This document shows positions 1,432 to 45,572 of a stretch of DNA of 64,000 nucleotides, piece by piece. A program made the translations under genes and the position numbers. The stretch comes from Methanohalophilus mahii DSM 5219 (GTDB lineage Archaea; Halobacteriota; Methanosarcinia; Methanosarcinales; Methanosarcinaceae). The notes beneath the pieces are model-generated. The model was not told the origin of the DNA and did not search any database. It saw only the letters and a program-made list of their open reading frames with translations. Position 1 is the stretch's first letter. Each line of letters opens with the position of its first letter. The stretch is taken from positions 992,001 to 1,056,000 of the forward strand of contig NC_014002.1 of assembly GCF_000025865.1 (NCBI RefSeq), written 5' to 3'.

Positions 1432-2868
1432 TCAATTGCGCATTATCCTGAAAATCATTGTCAGGCCTGTGAGATTAATAACTCCTATCAAAATTCCTCC
1501 CACAAGGTGCATGTTGTTTTCCGGGGAAGTAGTAGAGTCCTGATTTTCATCTTTTTCCTTTATTTCAATTACCCTCTCGTTTTCAATGGATAGCGTCTCT
1601 TTGTATGTCTTACCACTGCTATCAATCACTGTTTCCAGAGTGTATTGTTTATTTTTCTCCAGACCGGTTATGTAGTACACGGAATCATTGCTTCCAGAAC
1701 AAACTTCTTCGCCACTGCTGCTAAGTTTCATACTGGTAATGCTAGGTGACATGACCTTTATCGCTGCAGATTCTTTCAGGTTTTTTTCCTTTCCCTCACA
1801 AAAGGAAGGCCTTTCTGGAATGCCAAGTGTACTCAACAGAATTGGTGCTACATCTTCCTGGCCAATAGTTTCCTGAATTCGTTGTTGTTTAATGTTGGGG
1901 GACAAAATTATCAATGGCACATTGCGAACCTCATTTGCAGAGGCATATTTGTCTGATTTTGCCCCACCTCTTGCTTCAGCATCAGGAAATGCCATACCAT
2001 GGTCGGAAGTGATAACCAGTGCCAGATTGTTTTCCTGGCATTTTTTATAAAGAGGCACTATCATAGAATCAAGGTTTTCGATACACTGACTATAACCTTC
2101 ATAACCCCTGTAGATTCCTGCAGTTTCAAGCGCGGCAATATTGACGGTCATGAAGTATTTTGTATCCCTATCTTCATTTTCAAGGATACTGATAGAGTCC
2201 ATTGCTGCATCAATAGCCAATTTATTGTATGTATAATATCTCTGGATTGTCCCGGAAGGCGTACTTTCCACTCTGGAGAGTGCTTGGGATGCATGTGATT
2301 CAAACTCTTTTTTAAGAAGTGGCAGGACATTCATATCCTTATTCCCGGATATCTCAACCTGCATTACAGGTTCATTTATGGAATTGGTTGTGTCATGGAG
2401 AACAATGTCATTTTCTGCAACTACTTCTTCGGAGTCACCTCTCTCAAATATCCCAATTGTCAGGTATCCATGTTTCCTGACAACATCATAAATACTGGCA
2501 TTATCATAACCCACCATTGTGTCATCTGCATCCCTGTTACCTGTTATGATAACATTGTGTCCGCTGTTACCTTTCAGCTCAGGGACATAAACAGAATCAA
2601 AAATCGCAGCCTGATTATATATTTCTGGAAGATTTGACAAACAGGGTTTTTTGAGAACGGAATCATCGATTGCTTTTATATCCAGCTCAGGATTAATGTA
2701 ACCATTGCCAAGACCATCAACTACCAGTACCACTACACCATCAGGAGTATTTGTATTTCCTGCTTCAATAAATGTTGCACATCCGGCCAGGTTTATTGTT
2801 ATGCATAACAATAATAAGAGGAGAAGTGTTTTTCCACTCTAATGGATTTGTCTTTTAGAAAATTTCAT
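1432..2868 (-). CDS. Alkaline-phosphatase-superfamily lipoprotein with in-frame TAG at codon 10
   Basis: A probable secreted metal-dependent phosphatase or sulfatase-fold hydrolase of unknown substrate. The superfamily metal-site motifs are visible: VLVVDGLGNG near the N-terminus, GNSGHN as a candidate nucleophile region, and TSDHGMAFP. A C-terminal hydrophobic helix ends in FRIMRN. The uninterrupted frame offers no ATG or GTG, and a TTG at 2811 would cut into the signal peptide. Extending upstream through one TAG (2839-2841) gives ATG at 2866-2868 and a textbook leader: a basic n-region (MKFSKRQIH), then SGKT, a run of seven leucines and a lipobox-like LAGC. I therefore annotate the start at 2868 with TAG decoded as an amino acid, probably pyrrolysine. 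The alternatives are a nonsense mutation or a sequencing error. No clear ribosome binding site precedes the ATG. Total 478 residues. Confidence 0.75.
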
Positions 2869-17185: not shown

Positions 17186-19107
17186 AATATAGTCTGGGCA
17201 TAGATGCCGGCGGAACTTATACTGATGTAGTCATCATTGAAAACAATTCAGGAGAGGTAGTTAGTTCAAACAAAGCACTTACAACCTATCCTGATTTGCT
17301 TGAAGGCATTGAAAATTCAATTGATGGACTTGATTTTCAATATCTTGAAGATATTGCAGTAGTTTCTGTCTCTACAACTCTTGCCACAAATACGGTCCTC
17401 GAGAATACAGGATATCCTGTAGCACTTATACTGATTGGGGAACACGGAAGTGAAAGTGAAGGTTTTCCTTCCCAGCATATATTTCATGCAAACGGTGGCC
17501 ATGATCACAAAGGTCTGGAAATGCAGGAACTTGACATAAAAACCATCGAATCCTTTGTTGAGAATGTAAAGGATAAAGTATCTGCCTTTGCAATTTCGTC
17601 TCATTTCAGTATCCGTAATCCGGATCACGAAATAAAAACAAGAGAAATGATTCAAACAATTGTTGATATGCCAGTTGTTTGTGGTCATGAACTCTCCCAG
17701 GACATCGGAGCTTATGAAAGGGCTGTAACAGCTACACTGAATGCACGGCTCATTCCTGTAATAAAGCAATTTATTGAAACTATAGTTAAGGAGATAAGAA
17801 GAAGAGGAATCAGTGCCCGACTCTTGATGCTTAAATGCGATGGATCCGTAACTGGTATTGAAGATGCACTCAAAAAACCTATAGAAACCGTATTTTCAGG
17901 GCCTGCTGCAAGTCTCATAGGAGCTTCTCATTTAAGTGGAAGGCATACCTGTGTCACAATAGATGTGGGAGGTACAAGTACAGATGTTTCATCCATTTCA
18001 AAAGGAGTACCTGAACTAAGTGAGTCCGGTGGAATTGTAGGAGGATGGAAAACCAGAGTACGTGCAATTCATATGGAAACCTCTGCAATGGGGGGAGATA
18101 GTGGTATCTGGACGCGTAAAGGGGGACTTTTCATAGGTCCTCGTCGCGTAATTCCCCTCAGTCTTGCAGCAGAAATGTACCCGGGATTCGTATCGAAATT
18201 GAAAAATGCTTCTCATCCACAAAGGGATATCTGTGATGAAAATATCCAACCAGCTAGGTTTTTCGTTAAAAATGGTTCTGGCAAACATGAGTTAACCGAC
18301 TCTGAAAGAAAAGTACTTGATGTACTTGGCAATGAACCTATGTCTTACAGGGAACTGACCTCCATCTCCAGAAGCCACATTTCATCAAATATGCTGGATT
18401 CCCTTATAAGCAAACGATTTATCCGGGTTATAGGTTTTACTCCGACAGATGTATTACATGTACTGGGAGATTATGAACAATGGAATGTGGAAGCCGCATC
18501 AATCGGGGCTGACATTCTTGCAAGATTTGCTTTTAGCAGTAAGTTTGAAATTTGTGAAACACTGAAAGAAAAATTCGCTCTCAATATGGCATATGATTTG
18601 ATGTGCTTCTCCCTACCAAATATAGAAAAAGAGAGTATAATGGATACACTGACCGGTAATTATTCTGCTACCTTTAAGATGAAATTACCTGTAGTTCTTA
18701 TCGGTGGTCCTGTAGCTCCTTATGTAAAATTACTTGGAAAGATTGTGGACGCTGATATAATCCTCCCCGATCATGCAGATGTGGGAAATGCGATTGGGGC
18801 TCTATATGGTAAAGGAATAAAAAGGCTTGAATACCTTATAAGGCCTGCATCTTTATCAGAACCTGATCAGGATTTCATTGTTTTTTCCCAAAATGGAAGA
18901 AAGAGTTTTCAAACTTACACGCAAGCCTATGACTATTCCATAGATAATGGCAAAAATGTCCTATTTGAATATATGAAAAGCTGTGGTATCAAAAAAGATC
19001 AGATATCCTTCAACATAAAGGAAAAGAAAATAATTCCTGAGGGGTGGAAACATCCTCCTATGGAAACACAATTGACAATTATGGGAATAGGTACATCCCC
19101 ACTTTAA
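17182..19107 (+). CDS. Hydantoinase/oxoprolinase (HyuA-like) protein with embedded winged-helix-like segment
   Basis: A 641-residue ASKHA-fold protein of the HyuA family, members of which hydrolyse hydantoin, 5-oxoproline or related cyclic amides with ATP. Visible motifs are the phosphate-1 loop GIDAGGTYTDV at the N-terminus, STTLATNTVLE, and phosphate-2 VTIDVGGTSTDVSS about residue 255. Around residues 370-430 there is an insertion beginning ELTDSERKVLDVL and containing ALPLS-free helical turns up to GFTPTDVLHVLG that reads like a small winged helix. A close paralogue with the same insertion lies at 63147-64000. No HyuB partner is present. The substrate is unknown. Confidence 0.8.
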   Translation: MKYSLGIDAGGTYTDVVIIENNSGEVVSSNKALTTYPDLLEGIENSIDGLDFQYLEDIAVVSVSTTLATNTVLENTGYPVALILIGEHGSESEGFPSQHIFHANGGHDHKGLEMQELDIKTIESFVENVKDKVSAFAISSHFSIRNPDHEIKTREMIQTIVDMPVVCGHELSQDIGAYERAVTATLNARLIPVIKQFIETIVKEIRRRGISARLLMLKCDGSVTGIEDALKKPIETVFSGPAASLIGASHLSGRHTCVTIDVGGTSTDVSSISKGVPELSESGGIVGGWKTRVRAIHMETSAMGGDSGIWTRKGGLFIGPRRVIPLSLAAEMYPGFVSKLKNASHPQRDICDENIQPARFFVKNGSGKHELTDSERKVLDVLGNEPMSYRELTSISRSHISSNMLDSLISKRFIRVIGFTPTDVLHVLGDYEQWNVEAASIGADILARFAFSSKFEICETLKEKFALNMAYDLMCFSLPNIEKESIMDTLTGNYSATFKMKLPVVLIGGPVAPYVKLLGKIVDADIILPDHADVGNAIGALYGKGIKRLEYLIRPASLSEPDQDFIVFSQNGRKSFQTYTQAYDYSIDNGKNVLFEYMKSCGIKKDQISFNIKEKKIIPEGWKHPPMETQLTIMGIGTSPL

Positions 19108-19154: not shown

Positions 19155-20297
19155 TCAACCTATATAAGTTTTATTTGATCTTATTTTATAAGTAACAAAA
19201 AGGGTCAGGAAAAGGATAATTGCAAAACTCGCAAAGATTGTTTCTAACCCCATTATTCCTGTCAGGGCTCCTGCAAATATAGGCATGATTGCAAGACCTC
19301 CGTAGGTATATGTGCTGTAGAGGCCCATTGTGATCCCTTTGTTCTTACTCATTGATGCCAGCAGTGTTGGTAATCCGACCATCGCAAGTCCTGAACCAGA
19401 CCCCAGCAATGCAAATCCTACAAAAGGCAACTATATGGTCGCCAGGGTTCCTGAAGCTGCTACCACAATACCCATATTGATCATTTGTTTTGATTCCATG
19501 GATGTATGTGATACCCAAATGGAAGATATCATTGTGCTGATATAACTTACTGCAATGGCAATTCCCAGTTCGGATTTGGAAAGCATGCCTGTACTGTAAT
19601 CAGGATACAACGAAAGTAATACACCGTTGGTACCTATTAGTACAAAAACGATAATCCAGATTCCTGTATAAGATCTGTCTACCAGAAACCCGGAGGTCGT
19701 AGAGACCTTTTGCCGAATTTCAGCAATGATCGGAGACTTCGATTTTTCTTTATTCCTCCCATTTTGGTACAGGTATCCTATCCCTGCAATAAGGGTCAAG
19801 AAAGATATAACAGTAAAGGCCATTATACCATATTTTAAGCCTGTAGTAGCCAAAAGACCACTTAAAGCAACACCTGCAGCAAGTCCTGCATTTAAAAGAA
19901 AATTAAATTCTCCCATATACTGTTTTCTCCTGCTGAATGAGCCAAGGTAAGAAAATGCCGCAGGGAAAAATGCACCACATGCAGTTCCTTCCATAAATCT
20001 TGCAAGAATCAGCAGGTGAATTTCATTGGTAAAAAGCATTATAATTCCTGAAAAAAATGTCAACAACAGGCTGATCGTCACAAATCTCATGAACCCATAT
20101 CTTTCTGCCAGTATCCCAAAAGGCAACATCGTAAGCAAAGCTCCTATAAAGTAGGCAGAAAAAAGAAGACTTGACAATTCAACTGCATGATTTCCAGACC
20201 CGAATCCTGCAAGTTCAGGAAGAATAGGTATCACTGCATTGGACAATCCCATTATAGTAAATATAGATAAATAAACAAGTAATCTACCCTTTTCCAT
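19155..20297 (-). CDS. MFS transporter with in-frame TAG at codon 289
   Basis: A 12-helix major facilitator superfamily permease, 380 residues including the TAG position. The N-terminal half has the MFS loop pattern (GILAERYGFMRF) between TM2 and TM3. Conventional translation stops after ...SGTLATI at a TAG (19431-19433). The same frame continues without interruption as LPFVGFALLGSGSG and on through helices 10-12 to a TGA at 19155, completing a normal-length transporter. No frameshift or other lesion is seen. I read TAG as an amino acid, most likely pyrrolysine. The conservative alternative is a recent nonsense mutation splitting the gene. Substrate unknown; the weak N-terminal half similarity to drug or sugar efflux permeases does not decide it. 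Confidence 0.8.
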
Positions 20298-20679: not shown

Positions 20680-20823
20680 ATTGAAACCTCCCTAGAATAG
20701 ACCCGAAAATAATTATGATACTATAACGTATATACCTAACCGATGAATTAAAATTTTTAATTAGTAAATATTCATTAATTTGCAAACATTGCATTTATCC
20801 CTTAATAAAACCAAGTGATATTT

Positions 20824-43892: not shown

Positions 43893-45572
43893 ATGACCTC
43901 ACTTATAGATAATTTTTTGGCAAAAACAGATTTTGAATCATACGATGATTTCCACGCTAATTTTAAGATCAACATCCCTGAGAATTTTAATTTTGTATAT
44001 GATGTTGTTGATGTGTATGCCAAGGAGCAGCCTGAAAAAAAGGCTCTTGTCTGGTGTAACGATAACGGTGAAGAAAAGATATTCACTTTTGCTGATCTGA
44101 AATATTACAGTGAAAAATCTGCCAGCCTTTTCAGTAAATATGGAATAAAAAAGGGTGATGTGGTAAAACTTACCTTAAAGGGAAGATATGAATTCTGGGT
44201 ATGTATACTGGGATTGCACAGAATTGGTGCCATCGCTCTTCCCGGCACGCATATGCTAACAACCAGGGATCTCAAATACCGCATTGAAAGAGCAGACATA
44301 CAAATGGTCGTCAGTAATGCTGATGAAGGGCTTTTAGATCACATAGATGAGGCACACAAGGATTTCAAAGATGTGCTCAAGCACAAATTTGTAATTAACC
44401 ACAATCGTCCCGGCTGGATTAATTTTACAGAAGAACTGGAAAAATCACCCGCCGAATTTGTACGTCCAAAAGGAGAGGAAGCAACACAGAACAATGACAT
44501 ATCCCTGATGTATTTCTCATCCGGCACAACCGGCTTCCCGAAAATGGTACAACATGATTTTACATATCCCCTTGCCCATATACTCACAGCCGGCTACTGG
44601 CAGAATGTAATGGACAATGGTCTGCATCTCACAGTAGCAGATTCGGGCTGGGCAAAATGTGCCTGGGGAAAAATCTACGGCCAGTGGATTTGCGGCTCAG
44701 CTGTCTTTGCTTATGATTATGAGAGATTCGATGCCAGGAATATGCTGGAAAAAGCCAGCCATTATGGTGTGACCACATTCTGTGCACCACCTACAGTATA
44801 TCGCTTCCTGATAAAGGAAGACATGAGCCAGTACGATTTTAGCAGTCTCAATTACTGTGTGGTTGCAGGAGAGCCTTTGAATCCCGAGGTGTATGAAAAA
44901 TTCCTGAAATATACCGATCTCAAACTAATGGAAGGATTCGGCCAGACAGAAACAGTTGTAGCCATTGCAACATATCCATGGATGGAACCAAAACCCGGGT
45001 CAATGGGAAAGCCCTCACCAATCTATAATATACAGTTGATGCGTCCTGACGGAAAACTTGCCGATGTTGGAGAAGAAGGAGAAATTGTAATCGATACATC
45101 ACAGGGCAGACCCATAGGTCTGTTTGCAGGCTATCGTGCAGATCCTGAAAAGACAGAGGCAGCCTGGCATGACGGTTATTACCATACCGGTGACATGGCA
45201 TGGAAAGATGAAGACGGATATATGTGGTTTGTAGGACGAGCAGATGATATCATCAAGAGCTCTGGTTACAAAATAGGGCCATTTGAAGTTGAAAGTGCAC
45301 TTATGCAGCATCCTGCGGTCCTGGAATGTGCAATCACTGCATCCCCTCATCCTGTACGTGGGTAGGTTGTAAAAGCCACCATTGTACTTACCAAAGACTA
45401 TGAAGCAAGTGAGCAGCTCAAGAAAGAGTTGCAGGATCATGTAAAGAAGGTTACCGCACCCTACAAGTATCCGAGAATTGTGGAATTTGTACCCGAACTT
45501 CCCAAGACCATAAGTGGCAAGATTCGCAGGGTAGAAATCAGACAACATGACGACGAAAAGGGAGACAATTGA
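43893..45572 (+). CDS. AMP-forming acyl-CoA synthetase with in-frame TAG at codon 491
   Basis: Activates a short or branched carboxylic acid to its CoA ester via an acyl-AMP. Core motifs are [13 protein letters not shown] (ATP-binding P-loop, about residue 210), EGFGQTETV, and [34 protein letters not shown] (in part). Standard translation stops at a TAG (45363-45365) right after HPVRG. The same frame continues [12 protein letters not shown] and on to [10 protein letters not shown], which contains the catalytic C-terminal lysine, and ends with TGA. Full length is 559 residues, normal for the family. Where the TAG stands, relatives usually have Gln (RGQ). Without readthrough the protein would lack its essential lysine. 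It resembles medium/branched-chain synthetases of methanogens. The next three genes encode a 2-oxoacid:ferredoxin oxidoreductase. Confidence 0.88.

Follow-up and report, generated by a model that had tools for sequence, protein, structure and literature searches.

In the methylamine methyltransferases MtmB, MtbB and MttB, UAG is read as pyrrolysine (Pyl) by means of the pyl gene cluster, and the Pyl residue is catalytic and occupies a conserved position. Pyl has also been reported or predicted in proteins with other functions. The tRNA-His guanylyltransferase Thg1 of Methanosarcina acetivorans, a Pyl-using methanogen, contains a lineage-specific in-frame UAG; the protein has been tested experimentally, Pyl is dispensable at this position, and its presence is attributed to neutral evolution (Heinemann et al. 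2009, as cited in PMC2933860). Additional candidates for neutral drift to Pyl have been published (PMC2933860, PMC3639795). In the salt-loving methanogen Methanohalophilus mahii, the authors of the genome noted a UAG within the citrate synthase gene, proposed that it encodes Pyl, and argued that this biosynthetic enzyme is necessary (PMC3017947). In a different order of methanogens, 'Candidatus Methanomethylophilus alvus' combines a low frequency of TAG at gene ends with scattered in-frame TAG codons; 16 Pyl proteins were predicted, including a 'transporter family protein' of 289 aa that is annotated only as a member of a bacterial/archaeal transporter family (PMC4153887).

Here we describe an MFS transporter gene whose codon 289 is an in-frame TAG. 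It lies in a 64,000-nucleotide stretch of the M. mahii genome (the window), which corresponds to genome positions 992,001-1,056,000. Comparative analysis suggests that this UAG is probably translated as Pyl, which would be a neutral replacement of Trp inserted without a dedicated RNA signal. Like Thg1, the transporter is a non-methyltransferase of a Pyl-using methanogen with a lineage-specific in-frame UAG at a position where Pyl appears to be dispensable; unlike Thg1, it is a membrane protein known from sequence. Both it and the M. mahii citrate synthase come from the same genome and are encoded by conserved genes that are intact apart from one UAG; the citrate synthase, being argued to be necessary, is the stronger indirect case for read-through. 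M. mahii resembles 'Ca. M. alvus' in its TAG usage, with a transporter among the affected genes in both organisms. In contrast to the methyltransferases, where UAG is read via the same cluster, Pyl in the MFS protein would be neither catalytic nor at a conserved position. The original prediction presented the transporter as showing that Pyl is not limited to methyl-transfer enzymes, a point for which Thg1, the citrate synthase and the 'Ca. M. alvus' set are the earlier examples. Thus, the MFS gene is a new, clean membrane-protein example and not a new kind of phenomenon.

The boundaries, strand and single continuous frame of the gene, with TAG as codon 289, are as originally predicted (Table 1), and so is the lack of any other defect: examination of the whole frame revealed no second stop and no frameshift, and all family-invariant MFS residues downstream of the TAG are retained. 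The read-through protein matches the Pfam profile MFS_1 (PF07690) with 113.9 bits, over the cut-off, and the separate halves score 82.1 and 31.2 bits, covering profile positions 2-284 and 89-171, respectively. A chance open frame is excluded, given that five congeners encode an uninterrupted protein of 378-380 residues with 90-93% identity. In the AF2 model (mean pLDDT 87.3, pTM 0.86), the protein adopts a 12-helix fold, and residue 289 lies in the short loop that connects TM9 (helix 269-286) to TM10 (helix 291-316), in agreement with the predicted division of helices 1-9 from helices 10-12; by the usual MFS topology, this loop would face outward. The top fold matches in PDB are the MFS exporters NorA, VMAT and MdfA, which have the 12-helix MFS fold in common with this protein at 15-21% identity, and a search of solved structures by sequence yielded weak MFS matches at most. 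On one side, the gene converges with a hydantoinase-family gene ending at 19107; on the other, a shikimate-kinase-family gene, starting at 20815, is oriented divergently.

Table 1. The MFS transporter gene, other genes with in-frame TAG, and TAG-terminated pylB genes. Positions refer to the window unless a locus is given; all features are from M. mahii except the last.
Feature	Position	Strand	Details
MFS transporter gene	20297-19155	minus	380 codons with TAG as sense; ATG 20297; terminal TGA 19157-19155
In-frame TAG of MFS gene	19433-19431	minus	codon 289; TGG in five congeners
Pre-TAG part of MFS gene	19434..20297	minus	288 residues, TM1-TM9; product if UAG terminates
Post-TAG part of MFS gene	19158..19430	minus	91 residues, TM10-TM12; family motifs retained
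AMP-binding (acyl-CoA ligase-type) gene	43893..45572	plus	TAG 45363-45365, codon 491; CAG (Gln) in five congeners
Metalloenzyme/sulfatase-superfamily protein	1432..2868	minus	TAG 2841-2839, codon 10; Gln in two congeners
Citrate synthase	L109 (G000:C1:499571-500650)	minus	one in-frame TAG near N-terminus
PAS histidine kinase	L042 16479-19169	minus	continues across in-frame TAG
DUF255/thioredoxin-like protein	L163 105-1952	plus	continues across in-frame TAG
GNAT acetyltransferase	L050 15177-15716	minus	continues across in-frame TAG
URO-D-family protein	L172 4256-5296	minus	continues across in-frame TAG
pylB TAG end	L035 7386-7388	minus	
pylB TAG end, congener G007	L128 after 3259	plus	

Alignment with MFS homologues, the check suggested in the original prediction, shows TGG (Trp) at codon 289 in all five congeners, three of which are Methanohalophilus sp. 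RSK, M. profundi and M. euhalobius; therefore, the alignment identifies the TAG as a single, M. mahii-specific G-to-A transition. A distant orthologue with 53% identity to the MFS protein also has Trp at this position. The one-base distance from the TGG of the congeners would also fit TGG as the true codon, altered in the deposited sequence by an error of sequencing or assembly. We consider such an error very unlikely because the M. mahii SLP genome is finished as a single contig of 2,012,424 bp, the three TAGs of the window (one of them probable) replace different codons, TGG once and glutamine codons otherwise, and the published annotation includes another TAG gene (PMC3017947). An apparent break of the orthologue in another genome by TGA was rejected, as this TGA is the ordinary end of that gene.

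Across 29 relatives, the column of residue 289 contains W, S, R, Y, H, K, N, I, Q, F, V or L, with basic and polar residues being common. Thus, judging from this alignment, the column is not conserved across the MFS family, and it offers no indication that Pyl has a particular function there. Among the 50 genomes with a match, no other one has TAG at codon 289. A conserved or functional Pyl position was accordingly rejected. A related possibility is that Pyl at 289 is adaptive, with an outward-facing, imine-bearing side chain that alters substrate handling or senses amines. The location of the loop beside TM10, outside the cell if the usual MFS topology applies, would be compatible with such a role, whereas the unconserved column, the lack of TAG at this site in the other genomes with a match, the restriction to a single recent lineage and the nature of the change, a plain transition, make it most improbable.

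M. mahii encodes a complete pylT-S-B-C-D cluster, in which PylS was identified by a match over the cut-off, PylB, PylC and PylD by reading the adjacent ORFs, and which includes tRNA-Pyl with anticodon CTA; a second tRNA with this anticodon was not found in ~0.9 Mb of the genome. PylS over the cut-off was detected in 33 of the genomes searched, including the whole genus. The region 3' of the TAG in the MFS gene has no credible Rfam match to a known RNA element and no stable RNA structure (z = +0.61). PYLIS-dependent insertion of Pyl was rejected, with no structured element found downstream of the UAG. When an amber codon was introduced into a reporter in M. acetivorans, the yield of full-length product was 20-30% (PMC2933860), and therefore, read-through at codon 289 is plausible.

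That Pyl methanogens avoid TAG as a stop has been published (PMC4153887), and UAG is avoided as a terminator in the M. mahii genome as well. Genome statistics were obtained for sampled stretches, first of 481 kb, in which 4 of the 371 gene calls (1.1%) end in TAG, and later of ~0.9 Mb, in which 8 of the 716 do. The corresponding fractions are 1.3% in the congener G007 and 2.5% and 1.8% in two other PylS-encoding genera; a relative that lacks PylS has 10.9%. Seven of the eight TAG-ended M. mahii calls could be read past the TAG, and coding continues immediately in five of these, as opposed to 53 of the 701 calls that end in TAA or TGA (Fisher p = 6e-5); the relative that lacks PylS has such continuation past TAG in 3 of 18. 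The sole clear TAG terminator seen in M. mahii is that of pylB, which likewise ends in TAG in G007 and for which a TAG end has already been published in other species (PMC2933860). Read-through of this codon would append 39 non-coding-like residues; speculatively, it might provide feedback of Pyl supply on PylB. In a comparison of M. mahii with G007 orthologues, two convincing internal stops were found, both TAG, in the MFS and AMP-binding genes. These two alone are compatible with chance, given that TAG accounts for about 35% of the nonsense opportunity. One M. mahii gene seemed to contain an internal TAA, which is most likely located upstream of the true start.

The AMP-binding gene is nearly identical to its congeners on either side of the TAG and represents an independent parallel case, which is stronger for read-through than the transporter because the TAG column is conserved within the genus. 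The metalloenzyme/sulfatase-superfamily gene contains a probable third in-frame TAG of the window, its start site being uncertain. Beyond the window, several more M. mahii genes, including that for citrate synthase, contain in-frame TAG (Table 1). It is quite conceivable, although we lean slightly to the contrary, that UAG is effectively a dedicated Pyl codon genome-wide, with hardly any genuine terminators, and that Pyl is routine in membrane proteins, in this case in an extracellular loop of the transporter. A paper from 2025 reportedly argues for an archaeal code in which every TAG codon means pyrrolysine; therefore, reading of Pyl codons across the genome would mainly extend known work.

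Upstream of the TAG, the M. mahii-specific changes in the MFS gene comprise 2 amino-acid and 20 silent ones, and this part of the gene is clearly under purifying selection. Downstream, they comprise 4 amino-acid and 3 silent changes, the TAG excluded (p = 0.018 compared with the pre-TAG part). This relative excess of amino-acid changes is one reason to consider an early pseudogene: the TAG would be a plain nonsense mutation that ends translation in most cases, and the C-terminal part of this dispensable transporter would no longer be selected. The confinement of the TAG to M. mahii also fits this explanation, as does the fact that some relatives lack the transporter or have fragments of it, which marks it as a losable gene. 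The same region shows 4 amino-acid and 15 silent changes in the other five species, from which M. mahii does not differ significantly (p = 0.15). The residues substituted in M. mahii after the TAG are mostly ones found in relatives, so that the counts are suggestive of a possible relaxation of constraint and do not demonstrate decay. Given also that the gene shows no further damage and all invariant downstream residues are retained, and that UAG is hardly used as a terminator in M. mahii and sits inside other conserved genes, we regard a pseudogene as unlikely.

The original prediction that UAG is translated thus receives indirect support from the Pyl cluster, the near absence of UAG terminators and the other conserved genes with in-frame TAG. 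Under the preferred explanation, that codon 289 is read as Pyl, UAG in M. mahii would be mainly a sense codon for pyrrolysine, so that a TGG-to-TAG mutation in the MFS gene could be tolerated. At position 289, Pyl-tRNA(CUA) would compete with the release factor, and ribosomes would insert Pyl; the expected products are a full-length transporter of 12 helices that carries Pyl in the loop between TM9 and TM10, and some truncated 9-helix protein. The Trp-to-Pyl replacement would then be a case of neutral drift, similar to Thg1. From the evidence above, we infer decoding of codon 289 at some efficiency and neutrality of Pyl at this site. If UAG is indeed read through, genes annotated as 'split' or as pseudogenes in Pyl-using methanogens need re-annotation. 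The transporter would also provide a membrane-protein test case, in which a single Trp-to-UAG change can be compared with near-identical, Trp-bearing orthologues from sister species, and would illustrate how freely Pyl drifts into proteins after UAG loses its role as a stop.

The congener G007 has gene calls of its own that continue across TAG (L123, L141, L073, L078 and L140). Apparently, these are not the genes that cross TAG in M. mahii, a pattern consistent with drift having proceeded independently in each of the two species. In the metalloenzyme/sulfatase-superfamily gene of M. mahii, the TAG at codon 10 directly precedes a lipoprotein-like signal sequence.
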